This document shows positions 3,616 through 37,947 of a stretch of 43,247 nucleotides of DNA, piece after piece (within the stretch, counting starts at the first letter, position 1; every line of letters starts with the position of its first letter). Source of the stretch: Elusimicrobiota bacterium (GTDB taxonomy: Bacteria; Elusimicrobiota; Elusimicrobia; Elusimicrobiales; UBA9959); NCBI GenBank assembly GCA_018829985.1, contig JAHJSU010000251.1, positions 1-43,247 of the forward strand, in the 5' to 3' direction. A program made the translations under genes and the position numbers. The notes beneath the pieces were generated by a model. That model worked only from the letters and a program-made list of their open reading frames with translations. It was not told the origin of the DNA and made no database searches.

Positions 3616-6009
3616 ATGGGAAATCAAATCCTTTTTAACTGCGTAAAGCCCTCCAGATTCGCTTTAAACCCGCGCCGGGCCGATTATTACGATGTTTCGG
3701 ATATCATAATGAGCGGCCGGTACAAGGCGCCCGATGAGGATATAAAGGCGCTTGAAGATATAGACCTGATCTACAGAACGCTCGTCGCCGTGCTCTATAA
3801 TTTCGTTCCCGCCTCCGGCCATCCCGGCGGCAGCATCTCCTCGGGCAGGATAGTTCAGGCGCTGCTTTTCAGTTCGATGGATTATGATTTTTTCGAAGCC
3901 CAACGGGACGATAACGATATGATCGTCTACGCGGCCGGCCACAAGGCCCTGGGACTTTACGCGCTCTGGGCCCTGCGGAACGAACTCATCCGCGCGTCCG
4001 GCTCAAAGAACCTGCCGGAGCAGAAACTGCAGCTCAGGCTTGAAGATCTGCTGGGCTTCCGAAGAAACTCCGTAAACAATACCCCGCTTTTCAAAAAATT
4101 CAACGCCAAGGCGCTGGACGGACATCCGACGCCGCGGACCCCTTTTGTGAAGATCGCCACCGGAGCTTCAGGCGCGGGCGTGGGCGCCGGCGTCGGGCTG
4201 GCGTTCGCGGCCATGGACGCCTACGGCGGCCTCGCGCCGAAAGTAAATATCATCGAGGGCGAAGGCGGCCTGACCTCCGGCCGCGCGGCCGAGGCTATGG
4301 CATGCGCGGCGACCGCCCAGCTTTCAAACGCCGTTATGCACCTGGACTGGAACCAGGCGTCCATCGACTCCGACAGTGTCTGCCCTGAAAACTCCAGACC
4401 GGGAGATTATGTGCAGTGGTCGCCGGCCGAGCTGGCCTACCTCAACGACTGGAACGTCGTAAATGTTTCGAACGGTCATGATTTTTGTCAGATACTTACC
4501 GCCCAGAAATTCGCCGCCGACAGCGCCGCCAACAGACAGCCCACGGCCGTGGTGTACCGGACCGTCAAAGGCTGGAAATACGGCCTTGAAGGCAGGGCCG
4601 CCCACGGCGCCGGACACAAGTTCGCCTCCGACGGCTACTACTCCGCGACGGCCGAGTTTGAGCATGAATTTGGAGTTGCGATGCCCCGTGCGCGCCTTGA
4701 GGCGGACGCGCTCCTCCCCGACCCCGCTGCCGTCGAGAAATGTTTTTATGACACCTTGATGGCTGTAAGAAAAGCCGTTGAAAAAGCCCCGGCGCTGTCA
4801 AAATTCGCGCTGGGCAGGCTTGTTGCGGCCGCAGAAAGGCTTAACGCGCTGCGCAGGGCGCCCGGAGCCGGCGCCCCCAGGCCTGAAAAAGCCTATGCGC
4901 TGAAACCCGGCGAACCTCCGGCTGAGCTTAAATTCCCGCCCGGCGGAAAAATATCCCTGAGAGAAGCGCTCTCGCTGGGCCTTAATCATATCAATCGCGC
5001 CACCGGCGGCGCGGTCATAGCGCTGGCCGCGGATCTCTACGATTCCACCAGCGTGCGCCTTATCGGAAAAGGTTTCGGCGAGGGCTTCTACAATGCGGTT
5101 TCCAACCCGAAATCGCGGCTTCTCCCGGCGGGCGGCATCTGCGAGGACGCCATGGGCGCCGTCGCGTCCGGCATGGCGGGCTTCGGTCATCATATAGGCG
5201 TCACCTCTTCCTATGCCGCCTTTATAGCGCCGCTGGAGCATATTTCCGCCCGGCTTCACGTTATCGCTCAGCAGAACCGCGCGTTGCTGGATGGCCGGCC
5301 CTATAACCCGTTCATAATGATAAACGCCCACGCCGGCGCAAAGACAGGCGAGGACGGTCCGACGCACGCCGACTACCAGTCCCTGCAGCTTCTGGAAGGC
5401 AATTTTCCCGCGGGGTCGGTCATCACACTGACGCCCTGGGAACCGGCGGAACTATGGCCGCTGTTGGCCCGGGCCCTGGCTTTGAGGCCCGCTGTTATAG
5501 CGCCCTTTGTCACCAGGCCGCCCGAAAAGACCGTCGATCGCCGGGCCATGGGACTGCCCCCGGCCGAGGAAGCGGCCAAAGGCGTTTATTATATGCTCAA
5601 AGCCGGTCCAGGCAAACCCCGCCACGGCACCGTGGTGCTTCAGGGCAACGGAGCAGCAGCGGTCTTCGCGCACGAAATCCTGCCCAGGATACGGAAAGCG
5701 GGATTTAATCTGAACGTCCTGTACGTCGCCTCAAAGGAACTTTTTGAACTTTTAAGCGGCGGCGAGAGGGAAAAGATCTTTCCGGAAGAACTGGCCATGG
5801 AAGCCATGGGAATAACCGATTTTACCCTGCCCACCATGTATTACTGGGTCAGGTCCGGAGAAGGGATCGCCCGGACGCTTCACCCGTTTAAAAAGGGCCG
5901 TTACCCGGGCAGCGGCAGGGCTTCGGATGTGCTTAAAGACGCCGGCCTTGACGCCCGCGCCCAGTTTGACGCCGTAAAAGATTATGCGGAGTATATGGAG
6001 AAAAGGTAA
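3616..6009 (+). CDS. Transketolase-like thiamine-diphosphate enzyme (large variant)
   Basis: A cytoplasmic ThDP-dependent enzyme of the transketolase superfamily, about 797 aa against roughly 660 for typical transketolase. The N-terminal ThDP domain has 'PASGHPGGSISSGRI' and the cofactor motif 'EGEGGLTSG...LDWNQASID', a GDG-to-GEG variant of the usual GDG...N motif. The central and C-terminal part shows 'GICEDAMGAVASGMAG', 'TSSYAAFIAPL' and 'GEDGPTHADYQSL', the transketolase-type pyrimidine domain with its catalytic Glu and His. I chose ATG 3616 over the TTG at 3595 given in the track; neither has a ribosome site. Together with the divergent aldolase it suggests a role in C2-ketol transfer in the pentose-phosphate pathway. 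A divergent ketolase with other donors is possible, so no symbol is given. The TAA stop is the first part of a transposed element (6006); without it the frame would run on for five more codons. Confidence 0.85.
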   Translation: MGNQILFNCVKPSRFALNPRRADYYDVSDIIMSGRYKAPDEDIKALEDIDLIYRTLVAVLYNFVPASGHPGGSISSGRIVQALLFSSMDYDFFEAQRDDNDMIVYAAGHKALGLYALWALRNELIRASGSKNLPEQKLQLRLEDLLGFRRNSVNNTPLFKKFNAKALDGHPTPRTPFVKIATGASGAGVGAGVGLAFAAMDAYGGLAPKVNIIEGEGGLTSGRAAEAMACAATAQLSNAVMHLDWNQASIDSDSVCPENSRPGDYVQWSPAELAYLNDWNVVNVSNGHDFCQILTAQKFAADSAANRQPTAVVYRTVKGWKYGLEGRAAHGAGHKFASDGYYSATAEFEHEFGVAMPRARLEADALLPDPAAVEKCFYDTLMAVRKAVEKAPALSKFALGRLVAAAERLNALRRAPGAGAPRPEKAYALKPGEPPAELKFPPGGKISLREALSLGLNHINRATGGAVIALAADLYDSTSVRLIGKGFGEGFYNAVSNPKSRLLPAGGICEDAMGAVASGMAGFGHHIGVTSSYAAFIAPLEHISARLHVIAQQNRALLDGRPYNPFIMINAHAGAKTGEDGPTHADYQSLQLLEGNFPAGSVITLTPWEPAELWPLLARALALRPAVIAPFVTRPPEKTVDRRAMGLPPAEEAAKGVYYMLKAGPGKPRHGTVVLQGNGAAAVFAHEILPRIRKAGFNLNVLYVASKELFELLSGGEREKIFPEELAMEAMGITDFTLPTMYYWVRSGEGIARTLHPFKKGRYPGSGRASDVLKDAGLDARAQFDAVKDYAEYMEKR

Positions 6010-6118
6010 CTACTCAGGTCTGTCGTCGTAGTGGCAGAGTTTACTCTGCCCAAAAAGGCAAAGCAAGCTTTGCCACTACAAAAAATACGTGAAAAATACG
6101 GAGAACCTGAGTAGTTAC
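6006..6118. mobile_element. 113-bp miniature element, core B, with exact 8-bp target duplication
   Basis: Ends are GTAACTACTCAGG and its exact complement CCTGAGTAGTTAC. It is flanked by GAGAAAAG on both sides (5998-6005 and 6119-6126). The core contains two perfect hairpins, GGCAGAGT/ACTCTGCC and GGCAAAGC/GCTTTGCC, inside an outer GTAGT...ACTAC stem, so the RNA or single strand would form a three-way junction. By eye it is identical over 113 bases to the copy at 15209-15321. It carries no ORF. Its first TAA ends the transketolase-like gene. Confidence 0.9.
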
Positions 6119-12283: not shown

Positions 12284-12294
12284 AAAATAGGGAA

Positions 12295-12412
12295 GGCTTA
12301 AGGCTAAAGGATAAAGGCTAAGGGAAGATTTTTTTTGTTTTCCAGTGTCTTTACCCTAATCCTTTAGCCTTCATCCTTTATCCTTCCAGAAATTGCCATG
12401 GCAATTTTCGGG
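12295..12412. repeat. Class L1 inverted repeat plus small palindrome
   Basis: Left arm GGCTTAAGGCTAAAGGATAAAGG, right arm CCTTTAGCCTTCATCC... (12359-12387), then an AT-rich palindrome AAATTGCCATGGCAATTTT (12391-12409). This hairpin-plus-palindrome layout is seen in four other L1 copies. It fills the gap between the lipid kinase stop and the amrS start. Confidence 0.7.
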
Positions 12413-13285
12413 CTAGGGCGCAATGACGTTAAGAACCTGATGCAGGACTGAAAATCTCAAGTTCCCGTCGCTTTCAAAATCCTCACCGTCCAGATGATAC
12501 GGGGATCCGGCCGGGCAGCTGAGCTCGACCGTGCGGGCGGTGAAAGTCGTGACCAGGTCCGTATGCCTGGGCAGGGTGCCGTTAAAAAGGTCCGGGACGG
12601 CGCGCAAGGTCCGCAAAATGCCGGCTTTTTTCACCACCACGACGTTCAGTATGCCGTCGTCGATATAGGCGTCAGGCGCGATCACGGCCCCCCCGCCGTA
12701 TTGGCGGCCGTTCAGGATAGCGGTGACCATTGGCGAAAACTCATAGCGCCGGCCGTTCATTACGATTACGACGGGCCCGGGCCTGTACCGTAAAAATGTG
12801 ACAGCGGAATGATAGACATAAGGCAATATGCCTCTGCGGCAGCCGCTATTGAAGATCCGGGCCACCTCGGCGTCAAGGCCCACGCCCGCCGCGCAGAAAA
12901 ACGGTTTACCGTTCGCCAGCCCCGCGTCTATTTTCCGCGGACGCCATTGGAGCAGCCCGTTAAGGGCTTCCTCTATTTTCAGCGGGATATAGAGGTTCCT
13001 GGCCAAGCCGTTGCCTGAACCGCCGGGCAGTATCCCCAGCGCCTGGGTCCTGCCTATCAAAGGTTCGGCGGCCTCGCGGATGGTCCCGTCTCCGCCGGCT
13101 GCGACCACATGGAAAAACCCGTTTATGACGGCTTTTCTTGAAAGCTCGGCGGCATGGCCGCGCCGTTCGGTAAAGGCCAGCTCATAATGCAGGCGCCGCC
13201 CCTTAAAAAAATCATGTATAAGTTCCGGCAGTCGCGCGGCGCCGGCTTTACCGGCGGCGGGGTTTATAATGAAGAAATAAGACAT
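12413..13285 (-). CDS. Diacylglycerol-kinase family lipid kinase
   Basis: A 290-aa member of the DAGK catalytic family (YegS/DgkB/BmrU type). The N-terminus reads 'FFIINPAAGKAGAARLPEL'; the nucleotide site is 'VVAAGGDGTIREA' (about residues 60-72) followed by 'LGILPGGSGNGLARNL'. The C-terminal half has the conserved 'NGRQYGGGAVIAPDAYIDDGILNVVVV' segment and 'YHLDGEDF'. These enzymes phosphorylate diacylglycerol or related lipids at the membrane; the sequence does not show which lipid. Length is normal. ATG has no clear ribosome site and is preceded by an inverted repeat. Confidence 0.88.
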   Translation of the reverse strand: MSYFFIINPAAGKAGAARLPELIHDFFKGRRLHYELAFTERRGHAAELSRKAVINGFFHVVAAGGDGTIREAAEPLIGRTQALGILPGGSGNGLARNLYIPLKIEEALNGLLQWRPRKIDAGLANGKPFFCAAGVGLDAEVARIFNSGCRRGILPYVYHSAVTFLRYRPGPVVIVMNGRRYEFSPMVTAILNGRQYGGGAVIAPDAYIDDGILNVVVVKKAGILRTLRAVPDLFNGTLPRHTDLVTTFTARTVELSCPAGSPYHLDGEDFESDGNLRFSVLHQVLNVIAP

Positions 13286-17051: not shown

Positions 17052-17203
17052 ACCGGCAATCGCTATAGCGATTAGCCGGAAGGCTAAAGGATAAAGGCTA
17101 AAGGATGAAGGAAAAGATAAGGGAAATATAAGTTTTTTTCTGCCCTTTAGCCTTTATCCCTCATCCTTTATCCTTCCTGGAAAATTTACCTAAATTTTCC
17201 AGG
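17052..17203. repeat. Class L1 inverted repeat flanked by two small palindromes
   Basis: Left palindrome CCGGC-AATCGCTATAGCGATT-A-GCCGG (17052-17078), then L1 arms GGAAGGCTAAAGGATAAAGG and CCTTTATCCTTCC, then a right palindrome of 12-bp arms CCTGGAAAATTT/AAATTTTCCAGG (17176-17203). The right palindrome abuts the PorV-like gene's stop codon, where it could act as a transcript end. This is the clearest example of the three-hairpin layout. Confidence 0.75.
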
Positions 17204-18403
17204 TTAGTACAGCATGAAGAAATCGGAATCTTTCTTCTGACCGGGTTCCTGCGCCTTTTTCGGCCGGGCAGGCTCTTTTTTGGCGGGTTTTTTAGCTTTT
17301 TTCTGCGGCGGCGCTTTTTCGTCCTGGTTACGGTAGTGTACGGCCTTTTTATAGTCCCTGATGCGCCAGCCCGCGAATTTATAGCTGAAGGACACCTGCG
17401 AGGAATTGAAGACTTCATTGGCCAGGGACATGGCGAAATCCAGGGCGAAGCCCTCGTGATGCACGCCGACGCCCATGGTCAGGCCTTTATTGTCATCCAC
17501 GGCCTTGTAACCGAGACGCGCGTTGAGAATCTTCTGGAAATGGTATTCAAGTCCGCCCTTGAAATTTTTAAGACCCTCATTGGTATAGATGTCGTATTCC
17601 AGGGCCAGCAGGACGGACTGGTCCATTATGGTGGGCCGCTGCCAGGACAGGCCCAGCCGCATTACGGACGGCAGGGGATAGGTTTCCTTCAGATAGGTCA
17701 TGCCGCCGCCGTAATTTGAAAGAGAAGCGCCGCAGGCGAGCCCGAGCTTAGGTTCCACAAGGAGCCAGCCCGCGTCGAAAGCTATGGCCGAAGCGGAGTA
17801 TGTTTCCAGCAGTTCGGATTTTACGTACTTGGCCGAAAGGCCCAGGTATTGATCTATCCTGGCTTCATAACCTTCGATTTTCATTTCCTGGGAATATACC
17901 CTTTCGCCGTAGCTCAAAGAAAATACTTTTGTGCCTTCGGCGTCCATGCTCCTGGAAAAAATGGTGCCGTCGTCATTTATGCGGCGGTACGTGAAATCAC
18001 CGCTCTGCGAGAATATGGCCGAAACCGCGATGCCGGGTTTGTCAAGGCCGATAAGGCCGTTGATCGGCAGAGGCATGCCAAAACCCAGGAATTGGAGCTT
18101 TGCGTCGGCAAAGCCGGAAAGATACGTCGCCGAAATCTCGGGGAGATAAAGCCGGCCCAGGCCGGCCGGATTATAAGTCACGGAATAAATATCGTCCGCC
18201 ACCGACACGAAACCGCCGCCCATGCCCATGGCCCTGGGGCTGATATCGGTCTTTAAGACCTGGACGGCGGTGGAACCGGGCCCGCCCGCAAAGACAGGGG
18301 CCAGGGGATAGAGGATAGAGGCGAGGGCGAAGACAATAGAAAGCGCTGCGCGAACGCTTTCCCCTCTTCTGTGTTGACTGTTGTTCATATAGCTGCCATG
18401 CAT
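17204..18403 (-). CDS. PorV/PorQ-family outer-membrane protein
   Basis: A 399-aa beta-barrel protein of the PorV/PorQ family. The mature start 'GGPGSTAVQVLKTDISPRAMGMGGGFVSVADD' followed by 'YNPAGLGRL' is the family signature (the P-R-A-x-G-x-G-G motif). Alternating beta segments continue to about residue 350, and the tail is a Lys/Pro-rich extension (KKAKKPAKKEPARPKKAQ) ending in DFFMLY. In the Bacteroidetes type IX secretion system PorV receives cargo with C-terminal sorting domains. The gene lies directly downstream of a protease gene with such a C-terminal domain. Start is the first ATG; ATG at residue 6 is an alternative, and no ribosome site is evident. Part of the signal peptide is encoded by a heptamer repeat arm (18293-18330). 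Confidence 0.85.
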   Translation of the reverse strand: MHGSYMNNSQHRRGESVRAALSIVFALASILYPLAPVFAGGPGSTAVQVLKTDISPRAMGMGGGFVSVADDIYSVTYNPAGLGRLYLPEISATYLSGFADAKLQFLGFGMPLPINGLIGLDKPGIAVSAIFSQSGDFTYRRINDDGTIFSRSMDAEGTKVFSLSYGERVYSQEMKIEGYEARIDQYLGLSAKYVKSELLETYSASAIAFDAGWLLVEPKLGLACGASLSNYGGGMTYLKETYPLPSVMRLGLSWQRPTIMDQSVLLALEYDIYTNEGLKNFKGGLEYHFQKILNARLGYKAVDDNKGLTMGVGVHHEGFALDFAMSLANEVFNSSQVSFSYKFAGWRIRDYKKAVHYRNQDEKAPPQKKAKKPAKKEPARPKKAQEPGQKKDSDFFMLY

Positions 18404-24903: not shown

Positions 24904-25437
24904 ATGAAAATATTCGGCATTGACCCCGGGCTCGACAGGACCGGCTGGGCTGTCGTTGAAAAAACCGGAAGCGGTCCCCTGAAACTTGCCGCCTCGGGTC
25001 TGATCCATACTGAAAAAGGGAAAAACCTGGGAAAAAGGCTTCTTGAAATATTCGACGCTATAACGGCGGAAATGCGGCGTTCGGCGCCGGATGAGATTTC
25101 CATAGAGGAAGCGTTCTTTTCCAAGCGCGCGGACACCCAGGCCAATACCACCCACGCCAGGGGAGTGATACTGCTCGCCTGCGAGAAAATGGGCCTGAGG
25201 ATAAACGCTTACAATCCGAAGACCATAAAAGCGAACTTGAGCGGCAACGGCAACGCGGACAAAAGGCAGATGCAGCGGATAGTGCAGCTCCTCCTGAATC
25301 TGAAAGAAATCCCGAAGCCCGACGACGTGGCTGACGCCATGGCCGCCGCCGTCTGCCACATAAGGCTGGGCCCTTTCCGGGCGGCTATGGCAAAAGCCGG
25401 CAGCAAAATGCGAGTAAGGATGAAAGATGAGGGATGA
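24904..25437 (+). CDS. ruvC: Holliday junction endonuclease RuvC
   Basis: RuvC (177 aa) resolves Holliday junctions with RuvAB. The four acidic residues are in place: Asp7 in 'IFGIDPGLDRTGW', Glu in 'ISIEEAFFSKR', and the Asp pair in 'KPDDVADAMAAAVCH'. The last residues 'MRVRMKDEG' and the TGA stop are encoded by the start of an L1 repeat, so the native C-terminus has been replaced or extended; this lies outside the catalytic fold. No Shine-Dalgarno is seen before the ATG. Confidence 0.96.
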   Translation: MKIFGIDPGLDRTGWAVVEKTGSGPLKLAASGLIHTEKGKNLGKRLLEIFDAITAEMRRSAPDEISIEEAFFSKRADTQANTTHARGVILLACEKMGLRINAYNPKTIKANLSGNGNADKRQMQRIVQLLLNLKEIPKPDDVADAMAAAVCHIRLGPFRAAMAKAGSKMRVRMKDEG

Positions 25438-25512
25438 AGGATGAGGCAAAAGACGATGAAAAACAAAAATTATTTTTTCATCCCTCATCCCTCCGTCCGC
25501 CTGAGGCGGACG
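25417..25512. repeat. Class L1 repeat followed by GTCCGCCT palindrome
   Basis: Left arm AAGGATGAAAGATGAGGGAT..., right arm CATCCCTCATCCCT (25480-25493), then the perfect palindrome CGTCCGCC-TGA-GGCGGACG (25494-25512). It overlaps the ruvC 3' end and stays open in the ruvA frame, which misleads ORF callers. Confidence 0.75.
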
Positions 25513-25520
25513 AGTTATTT

Positions 25521-26138
25521 ATGATCGCTTATCTCAAAGGGAAACTGATCGTTAAATCGGAAGACCGCGCGGTCATAGAGACCGGCGGCATAGGGTATGA
25601 AGTGTTTTTCTGCGCCGAGTCCCTTAAGTCCATGGGGGCTCAGGGAACCGAGACGACGGCGTTCATAGCGGAATCCGTCAGCATGTACGGCGGCACCTCT
25701 CTTTACGGTTTTTTGAGCGCCGAGGAAAAAAACCTGTTCGAGCTTTTCCGGGAAGCCGTGCCCAATACCGGCGCGAAAAAGGCTCTCGACTACCTGGGAA
25801 AGGCCCTCAAATCCCTGCCCGATTTTAAACAGTCCGTCATAAAGAACGATCTCAAGCTTCTGGTCACCATATTCGGCTTTACGGCAAAAACGGCGGAGAA
25901 GCTCATTGCGGCGCTGAAGTACAAAATGCCTGATTTTGAAACTTCCGGCGAGGAAAAGATCCGCCGCGCGTGGAAATCCGGCGCTTACGCCCAGGTGCTG
26001 AGCGCGCTTGCCACGCTCGGTTTTAAGGCGGGAGAGGCCAAAGCGGCGCTTGACGCGGCCGAGGCTGAAGACCCGGCAGGCCCGGAGAACGCGGAACAAC
26101 TGTTAAAAAGGACGCTGAAGCGGCTCTCGCCGAAATAA
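25521..26138 (+). CDS. ruvA: Holliday junction DNA helicase subunit RuvA
   Basis: RuvA (205 aa) binds Holliday junctions and loads RuvB. The track's start at 25434 adds 29 residues translated from the repeat; the real start is ATG 25521, giving 'MIAYLKGKLIVKSEDRAVIE', the normal N-terminal OB-fold. Domain II has two helix-hairpin-helix units, diverged from the usual G-x-G forms ('VPNTGAKKAL' and 'IFGFTAKTAEKLI'). Domain III is 'AYAQVLSALATLGFKAGEAKAAL', the RuvB-binding part. Length is standard. Confidence 0.92.
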   Translation: MIAYLKGKLIVKSEDRAVIETGGIGYEVFFCAESLKSMGAQGTETTAFIAESVSMYGGTSLYGFLSAEEKNLFELFREAVPNTGAKKALDYLGKALKSLPDFKQSVIKNDLKLLVTIFGFTAKTAEKLIAALKYKMPDFETSGEEKIRRAWKSGAYAQVLSALATLGFKAGEAKAALDAAEAEDPAGPENAEQLLKRTLKRLSPK

Positions 26139-34750: not shown

Positions 34751-34865
34751 AAGGCTAAAGGATAAAGGCTGAAGGATGAAGGAAAAGATACAACGGTTTT
34801 TTCGCCCCTTAGCCTTTATCCCTAATCCTTTATCCTTCCCGAAAAATTCAATTGAATTTTTCGGG
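34751..34865. repeat. Class L1 repeat with a perfect 28-base palindrome
   Basis: Arms AAGGCTAAAGGATAAAGGCT and CCTTTATCCCTAATCCTTTA are followed by the gapless palindrome CCCGAAAAATTCAA/TTGAATTTTTCGGG (34838-34865). A near-identical closing palindrome is at 23706-23733. The ORF of the next gene is open through all of it. Confidence 0.75.
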
Positions 34866-35534
34866 TTTATCCACCGCCTGGCGGCTCTGGCCGTGTGTCT
34901 TTACCTGAGGCTGGTGGGGTTTACTACTTCCATTAAGTTCCACGGCGCGTCCGTTCCTCCGCCTCAGGCTGACGCTGAAGCCGCGGAGGCCGCGCCCTCG
35001 GGAGTTGGGCAGGTCATATACGTCATCTGGCACTGCCAGCAGGCCTTCCTGATTTACGCCCATCGCGGCCGGGGCATAACCGCGCTGGCAAGCAGAAGCA
35101 GGGACGGGGAATATGCGGCGGAGCTGCTGAAGCGTTTCAATTATGTCCTGGTGCGCGGCTCCACCAGTTCCGGCGGCCTGCGGTCCCTGATCCAGCTTAT
35201 CCAATGCGCCCGGGACGGCCGCACGCTGGCCATCACGCCGGACGGCCCGAAGGGCCCGGCCCGCAAAGTGCAGAAAGGCGCGGTTTACCTGGCCCGGAAA
35301 ACGGGCCTGCCTGTAATAGCCATAGCCGGCGCTCTGACTAATAAGATTTCGGCCCGCTCCTGGGACCGGTTCCAGATACCCCTCCCGTTCGGCAAAGCCG
35401 TTATCGCCTATTCGGCGCCGTTTTACGTCGCGCAAGCGTCCAGCCTTGAAGAAAAGGCGGCGGAGCTTGAAAAGATCCTGAATGAAACCGAACTTAAGGC
35501 CGAAGAACTGCTTAAGGCCGGGAACAACAGTTGA
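34776..35534 (+). CDS. DUF374 lysophospholipid acyltransferase-like protein
   Basis: A member of the DUF374 family of the LPLAT acyltransferase superfamily, inner-membrane enzymes of lipid or lipid A precursor acylation. 'VIYVIWHCQQAFLIY' (with the H of the HxxxxD-like motif), 'ASRSRDGEYAAELLKRF', 'VRGSTSSGGLRSLIQLI', 'LAITPDGPKGPARKVQKGAVYLARKTGLPVI' and 'SWDRFQIPLPFGKAVI' fit well. The first 30 residues of the ORF are translated from the L1 repeat and palindrome. An alternative start is GTG 34893, which shortens a predicted membrane helix. I kept the long ORF, but the true start is unknown. A Pro/Ala-rich insert (PPPQADAEAAEAAPS) near residue 65 matches a CCGCCTCAGGC palindrome. The next gene is waaA, consistent with an envelope lipid role. 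Confidence 0.8.
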   Translation: MKEKIQRFFRPLAFIPNPLSFPKNSIEFFGFIHRLAALAVCLYLRLVGFTTSIKFHGASVPPPQADAEAAEAAPSGVGQVIYVIWHCQQAFLIYAHRGRGITALASRSRDGEYAAELLKRFNYVLVRGSTSSGGLRSLIQLIQCARDGRTLAITPDGPKGPARKVQKGAVYLARKTGLPVIAIAGALTNKISARSWDRFQIPLPFGKAVIAYSAPFYVAQASSLEEKAAELEKILNETELKAEELLKAGNNS

Positions 35535-35740: not shown

Positions 35741-37123
35741 ATGGGAACGATCCTCTTTTTTTTCTACAACCTCCTTACCCCATTCATAGCATTGCTATAT
35801 CTCGTCTTTTTTATTTTTTCGCCGCGCCGGAGATTGTTGAGAAGTTTTCTTTCCGAACTGGGCGAAAGATTCGGGGTTTCCGGGGCGGCTCTGCCGGAGA
35901 AGCCGATCTGGCTTCACGCGGCGTCCGTGGGCGAAGCTAAAGCCGTTAAAAACCTGGCGGCAATCCTTAAGGAGAAATTCCCGGCGGCCGCCGTTATGAT
36001 AACCACCTCCACCTGGGCCGGACGGACGGAGGCGCTGAAACTCACCCCTCACGCGAGACTCTTGCCGCTTGATTTTTATCCGTTCATGAAAAAGTTCATA
36101 ACCAGGGCCAGGCCCGGGATACTGCTGATAGCCGAAACGGAGATCTGGCCCAATATGCTCGTCTGCGCGGCCGCGGCCGGGGTTAAAATCTGCATAATAA
36201 ACGGGCGCATGTCGCAAAAAACGCTCATCCTTTACCGGATCTTCTTTCCGCTGACGGCCAAAATCTTCTCGGGCGTGGAAAAGATACTCGCGGCTAGCGT
36301 CCCGGACGCCGCCAACTACGCCAAACTCCTGAAAGACGACTCAAAAGTCGCCGTCACCGGGAACATGAAATATGACGCACTGGATACCGGGCCGGATAAA
36401 CTTGAAGGGATAAACGTCTTTCTGAAAAAAATATCCTGGACGGGAAAAACCGTCTGGACCGCGGCCAGCACCCACCGGGGCGAAGAAGAAGCGATATTGG
36501 ACTCCTACCTGGCTCTCAAAAAAACCAGCCCCGGTTTAAAACTGGTCATTGTCCCCCGCCACCCGGAGCGGGCCGGGGAGACACGGGCGCTGCTGGCCCT
36601 TAAAAACATCCCCTTTATCGTCTGGAGCGATAGAGCTAGAGGGATGTTTCCATACTCCTCCCCCTTTATGGGGAAGGGCGAGGGTGGGGGCAGTCCCGAC
36701 TGCCTGCTGGTAGATGAAATTGGCTGGCTTATAAATTTCTATTCTCTTTCCGCCGCCGCGTTTGTGGGCGGGACGCTGGTGAACGTGGGCGGCCATAACC
36801 TGCTTGAACCGGCTTCTTTTTCAAAGCCGGTCCTGTTCGGACCTTATGTGCAGAACACCAGGGAAGCCGCTGAAATGCTTTTAAAAACGCGCGGCGGATT
36901 CATGGTTGAGGACGGAGAGGAATTGCGCGCGAGGCTCGCCGTCCTGCTGAAAGACCCCAAGCTCTTAAAAACCGCCGGCGGCAACGCCAAAAAAGCCCTT
37001 GAAAACCTCCAGGGCGCCACAGCCAAAACGATCGCGATAATAGAAAAATATGTAGCTGCTCAGCAGCAAGAAAACCACGGAGACACAGAGAACACAGAGA
37101 AACACGGAGGAAAAACTCCGTGA
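35741..37123 (+). CDS. waaA: 3-deoxy-D-manno-octulosonic acid transferase (Kdo transferase)
   Basis: WaaA/KdtA (GT30) adds Kdo to lipid IVA at the inner membrane, the first step of LPS core assembly. I start at ATG 35741 ('MGTILFFFYNLLTPFIALLYLV', membrane anchor); the track's TTG at 35705 adds 12 repeat-derived residues. Seen: 'IWLHAASVGEAKAVKNLAAIL', 'LLPLDFYPFMKKFI', 'AETEIWPNMLVCAAAAGVKI', 'NGRMSQKTLILYRI', 'AASTHRGEEEAIL', 'VPRHPERAGE' and 'FVGGTLVNVGGHNLLEPASF'. Between 'NIPFIVWSD' and 'LLVDEIGWL' there is an unusual insert 'RARGMFPYSSPFMGKGEGGG' encoded by a palindromic repeat. The last 20 residues and the stop come from the repeat at 37052-37161. The catalytic core is intact. Confidence 0.92.
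   Translation: MGTILFFFYNLLTPFIALLYLVFFIFSPRRRLLRSFLSELGERFGVSGAALPEKPIWLHAASVGEAKAVKNLAAILKEKFPAAAVMITTSTWAGRTEALKLTPHARLLPLDFYPFMKKFITRARPGILLIAETEIWPNMLVCAAAAGVKICIINGRMSQKTLILYRIFFPLTAKIFSGVEKILAASVPDAANYAKLLKDDSKVAVTGNMKYDALDTGPDKLEGINVFLKKISWTGKTVWTAASTHRGEEEAILDSYLALKKTSPGLKLVIVPRHPERAGETRALLALKNIPFIVWSDRARGMFPYSSPFMGKGEGGGSPDCLLVDEIGWLINFYSLSAAAFVGGTLVNVGGHNLLEPASFSKPVLFGPYVQNTREAAEMLLKTRGGFMVEDGEELRARLAVLLKDPKLLKTAGGNAKKALENLQGATAKTIAIIEKYVAAQQQENHGDTENTEKHGGKTP
36653..36691. repeat. Palindromic repeat inserted in frame in waaA
   Basis: TCCTCCCCCTTTATGGGG followed by AAGGGCGAGGGTGGGGG has C-rich and G-rich halves that pair. It encodes SSPFMGKGEGGG in a loop of WaaA where homologues go straight to the 'LLVD' strand. 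It keeps the frame. Confidence 0.65.
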
Positions 37124-37161
37124 AACTCCGTGCTTTCTGTGCCTCTGTGGTGAGCAGTTAC
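37052..37161. mobile_element. Miniature element, core F, spanning the waaA-protease junction
   Basis: Left end GTAGCTGCTCAG and right end GTGAGCAGTTAC resemble the family ends. Core arms are CACGGAGA-CACAGAGA-like octamers and their complement (CTTTCTGTGCCTCTGTGG). Flanks show no matching 8 bases, so it is old or captured by other means. It encodes the WaaA C-terminus and the start of the next gene. Confidence 0.6.
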
Positions 37162-37947
37162 AAGGAATTCAGGATTATACGCATATTACTATTATTATTC
37201 ATCCCCGTTCTGCTGTTCGCGGGGGAAAGCGGCTGGAACACCCGGTGGACGTCCCATTTCCTGATCCACCAGGAAAACAGCCGGTCCGCTAAGGGGGTCG
37301 GCGCGGAGATGGAGAAGATCTTCCGCGGCCTGCGGAAAGAACTGTGGTCATTAAGTTCGTGGATGGACACGGAAAAGGTGGAGGTATATCTTTATAAGGA
37401 CCGCAAAAGCTATCTTGAGGGCCGGTTCAAGCCGCCTGAATGGTCCGGCGGAATGGTTTATAAATCCGGGCGTCGCGGCGCGCAATGGTCGCTGGCCGTA
37501 TATGAGCCCTTCAGCCCGAAAACCGTCGCCCATGAACTGACGCATTTATATTTTGCGAGTTTCTTTAAACGGGTTCCCGGGCGCCTCCCTCTTTGGCTTA
37601 ACGAGGGCCTGGCTGTAATGATGGTGGAGGAGACGGCCGGCCGGGTGAAGCCCTCGTACCGCGGGCCTCCCGTGGACAAGGCGATCCCGGCGGAGGTTTT
37701 CTTAAAGCTGAAGAAGATCCCAAATTCCGATTCCGGTTCCGTGCAGGATTTTTATTCGCAGGCGCACAGCGTCGTCCGCTTTCTTAAAAAGGGGAATTCC
37801 CCGTTCAAATTTGAGAAATTCTGCCGGCAGCTGCGGGACGGGGAACAGGTTGAGCGCGCTTTATTCAGCGCTTACGGCTTCGGCAGCATGGAAAAGTTCG
37901 AGAAGGCCTGGAAAAAATGGGCCGCCCCGCCCGGCCCCGGCAAGTAA
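37120..37947 (+). CDS. Exported gluzincin-like metalloprotease (peptidase MA-like)
   Basis: A 275-aa protein with an N-terminal signal ('RIIRILLLLFIPVLLFAGES') and a zinc-protease motif 'TVAHELTHLYFASF' (HExxH) followed by 'LPLWLNEGLAVMM', the downstream glutamate; this is the layout of the peptidase MA-like family. Substrate unknown; location periplasm or outer surface. Start: the GTG at 37120 overlaps the waaA stop (GTGA); GTG codons at 37147 and 37150 are alternatives. All three lie inside the repeat 37052-37161, and no in-frame ATG/GTG/TTG lies between the repeat and the signal core, so translation must begin in repeat DNA. Confidence 0.8.
   Translation: MKLRAFCASVVSSYKEFRIIRILLLLFIPVLLFAGESGWNTRWTSHFLIHQENSRSAKGVGAEMEKIFRGLRKELWSLSSWMDTEKVEVYLYKDRKSYLEGRFKPPEWSGGMVYKSGRRGAQWSLAVYEPFSPKTVAHELTHLYFASFFKRVPGRLPLWLNEGLAVMMVEETAGRVKPSYRGPPVDKAIPAEVFLKLKKIPNSDSGSVQDFYSQAHSVVRFLKKGNSPFKFEKFCRQLRDGEQVERALFSAYGFGSMEKFEKAWKKWAAPPGPGK

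Follow-up and report, generated by a model that had tools for sequence, protein, structure and literature searches.

One copy of a mobile repeat supplies the end of waaA and most likely the start of the following protease gene in an Elusimicrobiota genome

That MITE-derived sequence can form the C- or N-termini of proteins is established from the RU-1, QMITE and RPE elements. For the ERIC-like enterobacterial repeats RU-1, RU-2 and RU-3, the accessible part of the source describes a native stop removed and a C-terminus extended past the conserved domain in ECA3499, and other RU repeats that form N-termini or overlap signal sequences (Delihas 2007, PMC2759123). In Coxiella, QMITE1 and QMITE2 copies overlap several genes, ubiB and nagZ among them, at the 3' end, and QMITE2 provides 33 C-terminal residues of EnhC, where an indel sets the position of the stop (PMC5896051). 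Rickettsia palindromic elements (RPEs) are palindromes of about 110-150 bp kept in frame in protein genes (review PMC10969869). The ends of IS66 insertion sequences begin with GTAA, and their insertion yields 8-bp duplications (PMC11946415).

The DNA analysed here (the window) is a stretch of 43,247 nt from an uncultured Elusimicrobiota bacterium in which waaA is followed by a metalloprotease gene. A first-pass annotation had placed a repeat at 37044-37165 and proposed that it encodes the end of WaaA and all possible start codons of the protease. The repeat was present as described, and alignment with its family narrowed its boundaries to 37052-37161 (110 nt). That this repeat, core-F, supplies the end of waaA and holds the ATG, GTG and TTG codons available to the protease was confirmed, and the repeat itself is beyond chance, with 48 BLAST hits in its own genome and a strong single-strand fold (z of -7.3 as DNA and -10.4 as RNA). 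The features of the junction are as follows.

35741-37123, plus strand: waaA, Kdo transferase (Glycos_transf_N, PF04413, E 6.5e-46); alignable with orthologues as far as roughly codon 450 of the 35705 ORF
37052-37161, plus strand: core-F MITE copy, an imperfect palindrome with ends GTAGCTGCTCAG / GTGAGCAGTTAC (family ends GTAACTACTCAG / GAGTAGTTAC)
37052-37120, plus strand: element-encoded WaaA C-terminal tail, 23 codons translated as VAAQQQENHGDTENTEKHGGKTP, missing in 29 orthologues
37103-37122, plus strand: apical hairpin CACGGAG-GAAAAA-CTCCGTG in the predicted RNA fold, with GGAG and GTG both paired in free RNA
37106-37110, plus strand: GGAGG, Shine-Dalgarno-like, 9 nt before GTG 37120 and inside the element
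37120-37122, plus strand: GTG, the most likely protease start (inferred), overlapping the waaA stop as GTGA
37120-37161, plus strand: protease N-terminus from the element, 14 codons, MKLRAFCASVVSSY
37120-37947, plus strand: Peptidase_MA_2 metalloprotease gene (HELTH motif; PF13485, E 1.6e-16), with an 85% identical sister orthologue adjoining waaA
37121-37123, plus strand: waaA TGA stop, within the element
37147-37152, plus strand: GTG GTG, the remaining in-frame ATG/GTG/TTG codons before the domain, in the element and with no Shine-Dalgarno sequence (SD)
37162-37176, plus strand: AAGGA-N7-ATT, just outside the element, perhaps a remnant of the original ribosome-binding site and start

Like the RU fusions, this case concerns a short MITE-like repeat that forms protein ends, but the RU repeats have other sequences and hosts, and each one described in the accessible part of that source makes one end of one gene, not a stop together with the next SD and start. 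The Coxiella QMITEs are unrelated elements, and the portion of the report available mentions no downstream start codon or overlap. The RPEs, likened here by description and not by sequence, lie mostly inside genes, whereas the core-F copy forms a gene junction. No report of one repeat copy giving the end of one gene plus the SD and start of the next was found in the open-access literature. A single copy supplying the waaA stop and the SD and likely start of the next gene is well supported as an observation and appears to be new, the absence of reports being in itself weak evidence.

When WaaA was aligned with its orthologues, which were present in 58 of 61 genomes, homology stopped at residues 446-450, and the 5' edge of the element falls exactly on codon 450 of the 472-codon ORF. 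All 29 of the orthologues compared stop no more than 0-16 residues beyond their last aligned position, which lies around residue 446-450 of the window protein, and the NCBIfam Kdo-transferase models end at WaaA residues 448-454, with bit scores under the curated cut-offs. The proposal that the end and stop of WaaA come from core-F was borne out, with 23 residues before the TGA instead of the 15 quoted at first.

The same adjacent gene pair is found in a sister genome of the same genus, a groundwater MAG of the Elusimicrobia (contig JACQYT010000015.1), with 83% (WaaA) and 85% (protease) identity; a protease gene within 1.5 kb of waaA was seen at no further locus of the 30 retrieved. The sister junction lacks the element and has a different sequence between the genes. 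Its WaaA ends in ...IAIIEKWLK*, against IAIIEKY-VAAQQQ... in the window, and the protease N-termini (MKKCGKKIPFLPRPIAFFGLALLPALLVAGESGWN, MKKCGKKIPFLPRP..., in the sister versus MKLRAFCASVVSSYKEFRIIRILLLLFIPVLLFAGESGWN in the window) are unrelated, homology starting at residue 22 in the genome search or 35 by tblastn. Element-free orthologues with the same terminal residues were thus not found, although the protease half of this comparison is the weaker one, as protease N-termini vary anyway. Repeat-like pieces of other kinds, CCGCCTTAGGCGG and ATTTTTCGGGTTAG, occur in the sister gap as well; ATTTTTCGGGTTAG resembles the ends of the D4 repeats described below, so that in the sister another repeat may have reshaped this junction.

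Upstream of the conserved domain, the protease frame has three ATG, GTG or TTG codons (GTG 37120, 37147 and 37150), and all three lie inside the element. The initial claim that the repeat holds every possible start stands for these codons, with the qualification that a rare non-AUG candidate, ATT 37174, lies just outside. The two ORFs overlap by 4 nt (GTGA, 37120-37123), a stop/start overlap of the kind known from translational coupling. That this overlap is made of repeat DNA was upheld: the stop, GTGA and GGAGG are all in the element, and GTGA belongs to the family sequence, which reads CTCCGTGAAACTCCGTG in other genomic copies. The overlap was therefore carried in by the element, not made at this locus. 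For comparison, GGAG, GAGG or AGGA at 3-11 nt precedes 10 of the 30 putative genes of the window. The MKLRAFCASVVSSY segment would be the n-region of the signal peptide predicted for the protease, whereas chromosomal DNA encodes the hydrophobic core of that peptide.

The element could instead give only the WaaA tail and stop, with the protease starting natively at ATT (or ATA) after AAGGA and carrying a short signal peptide, MIRILLLLFIPVLLFA. AAGGA (37162-37166) lies 7 nt before ATT 37174, both outside the hairpin, and the third protease orthologue, from Elusimicrobia GWF2_62_30 (start MLLPRLLLLLCAPLSAMESGWN), begins about there (MLLPRLLLLLCAPLSA), which makes a native relic possible. However, ATT start codons are very rare in bacteria, decay of an ATG to ATT is what would be expected once an upstream start had taken over, and the element itself provides GGAGG-N9-GTG. 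A native start is on balance unlikely, and GTG 37120 is preferred as the most likely start.

The frame through the junction is set by a run of A5 in the window, where the nearest short-form copies (L032, L033 and L034) have A6, and the length of this run determines whether two genes overlap or a single fusion results. A sixth A would take the frame through KHGGKNSVKLRAFCASVVSSY directly into the protease. Were A5 an assembly error, which it could be as the evidence base is one draft MAG, or a population variant, the true product would be a single WaaA-MITE-protease fusion. Such a fusion is very improbable: the window does have A5, the copy differs from its family at other residues too, and a signal peptide in mid-fusion would be unusual. 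The indel-set stop of QMITE2, as given in the available portion of the Coxiella report, resembles this A5/A6 difference.

The RNA of the element is predicted to form a hairpin of -62.9 kcal/mol with a near-continuous stem of more than 40 pairs. The reading that we prefer, with a probability of roughly 0.68 as a whole, is that the element remade the junction, that the protease starts at GTG 37120 and that its translation is coupled to that of waaA. Through insertion, or through recombination of one copy with another, an IS66-type MITE would have reached the boundary between waaA and the protease gene, displacing both the native waaA stop and the sequence that natively preceded the protease. As the waaA frame stays open through the element until the TGA that the element itself carries, WaaA would have been lengthened by 23 residues and given a different stop, and the GGAGG-N9-GTG of the element would most likely start the protease, whose signal-peptide n-region would consist of 14 element residues. 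In free mRNA, the SD and GTG would be locked in the hairpin; a ribosome that has translated waaA as far as its TGA would keep the stem unfolded and could reinitiate at the GTG that overlaps this stop, so that the protease is probably translated by termination-reinitiation. In favour of this reading, a MITE lies in frame in a radical SAM gene, so such elements are tolerated as coding DNA here. Against it, a hairpin of -63 kcal/mol may obstruct translation or serve as a substrate for RNase III, and the native AAGGA-N7-ATT could still start the protease.

The same stem would also suit a signal acting mainly in RNA processing or stability, in which an RNase III cut uncouples the two genes and the coding ends are incidental; RNase III cutting is suggested for the gene-end QMITE2 in the available portion of the Coxiella report (PMC5896051). 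There is only a small chance of this, since a cut in the last waaA codons would leave an mRNA without a stop, and ribosomes translating waaA would hold the stem open.

Neutral erosion, in which two genes met a repeat, ORF calling mimics design and one or both genes are decaying, draws on the fact that repeats fill most junctions of the window, so chance alone will place some of them over ORF ends. Neither ORF is shortened, however, both conserved domains are intact, and comparison with the sister gave dN/dS values well below 1 (NG86): 0.28 for waaA (0.097/0.345) and 0.14 for the protease core (0.065/0.465). By these values both genes are under purifying selection across the species pair, over the whole time since the split; they neither date the element nor show function after its arrival. 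The decay of either gene has little probability, and a remade junction with coupled translation is again preferred.

The 110-nt element is short, has inverted ends, carries no transposase and has many copies, as is typical of MITEs. Exact matches to the family end motif GTAACTACTCAG numbered 266 in its own genome versus 8 in the sister, and the reversed motif, used as a control, had no matches. The window carries several palindromes with ends GTAACTACTCAG/CTGAGTAGTTAC and differing cores, flanked by direct 8-bp duplications (e.g. CTTAAATT, CCTGTTCC, GATTTTTA and TATTAAAC). Perfect 8-bp target duplications were found at 21 of 45 fetched element loci, including the core-F copies L043 and L054, and the sister sequence aligns without interruption through the sites of two family members (6006 and 15209), as expected of empty sites. 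In the sister, perfect 13-bp ends GTAACTACTCAGG...CCTGAGTAGTTAC surround a transposase fragment (C84; PF03050, E 5.4e-14), and ends GTAACTACTCAG...CTGGGCAGTTAC surround a 441-aa PF03050 frame (C92). Because of these shared ends around IS66 genes and the 8-bp duplications, the sequences assign the core-F family to the IS66-type MITEs. It differs from IS66 insertion sequences in its 110-nt length, its lack of a transposase and in ends that follow GTAACTACTC, not GTAAGCG.

Relative to the sister, the genome has undergone a MITE burst in which several unrelated cores share one end. In this expanded genome (a 96% complete draft of 362 contigs) no match to the IS66 transposase PF03050 was found; the mobiliser may have been lost, left unassembled or too diverged. 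The core pattern occurred in 3 of 341 genomes (14 copies in its own genome and one each in two others), which ruled out a phylum-wide repeat. A REP/RAYT origin was rejected, as none of eight Y1_Tnp genes had core-F in the fetched flanks and one had a terminal-inverted-repeat element with another core. A longer IS had been suspected on the ground that several contigs begin ~95 nt before the core-F end, but the complete context (C177) consists of two nested short elements without transposase. An Rfam RNA and plasmid-borne spread were also discarded, the Rfam search of the window giving only a tRNA and no plasmid match being obtained. A literature search for the tail peptide or the repeat letters returned nothing.

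The 8-bp duplication of the copy at 37052 is not clean (AAAAATAT / AAGGAATT, 4/8). From the last alignable waaA base to the first alignable protease base, the sister has ~135 bp and the window 152 bp, 110 of which are the element, so that ~95 bp of sister-like sequence are missing. Both observations speak against a plain insertion event in sequence like that of the sister. The arrival would be explained if two copies flanking the junction had recombined and the native stop and start had been deleted in the process; decay of an old insertion is an alternative route.

Other repeat-made gene ends were seen in the window and in the fetched loci of the genome, to which the gene-end counts apply. 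The ruvC/ruvA junction is the second repeat-made junction in the window: the D2 repeat at 25416-25457 gives ruvC (24904-25437) its tail ...MRVRMKDEG* and stop, overlapping the ruvA ORF (25434-26138) as ATGA. The same repeat adds an upstream in-frame extension to ruvA, the native start of which (MIAYLKG, with its own ATG) remains. A palindromic D4 repeat (34751-34869) encodes about the first 31 residues of a DUF374 gene (34776); this start is common to both species of the genus (MKEKIQRFFRPLAFIPNPL...) and so represents an older event, most other relatives aligning only from residue 32-53. The MITE at 6006-6118, which has the 8-bp duplication GAGAAAAG and whose site is empty in the sister, provides through its G-TAA end the stop of a transketolase-like gene (6009), which ends in MEKR* versus MEKRLKDKG in the sister. 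A core-F MITE with a perfect duplication (GAAAAAAG) lies exactly at the end of the PNPase gene (L054:1508-1774, C57), where the stop is the TAA of its G-TAA end and the protein end is the same as in the sister. The minus-strand gene stops at 12413 and 17204 fall in D4-type repeats (12293-12417 and 17080-17207). In the radical SAM gene (L124:480-576, C24), a 97-nt MITE plus its 8-bp duplication makes an in-frame insertion of 35 codons (VTTQVLWKAPPTLTLPPPKADEGGG...) in a protein linker of varying length among relatives, the same kind of event as that of the RPEs. ORFs entering elements at L109 and L117 were not counted, as they lack Pfam domains and are possibly antisense.

A further and rather doubtful suggestion is that the element acts as a portable gene-joining cassette: a single frame holds an open tail, a stop, a hairpin-hidden SD and an overlapping GTG, so that landing between two genes could couple them in one step, and such elements might repeatedly remake operon junctions in this lineage.

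For annotation, the case is a warning that tails such as QENHGDTENTEKHGG are translations of repeats, not conserved domains. The species pair is close enough for comparison with and without the element, and with hundreds of related ends in the genome the frequency of repeat-set stops, starts and overlaps can be counted. At this locus, the two flanks of a gene junction, and with them the signals that may allow the genes to be co-translated, come from one copy of a mobile repeat.
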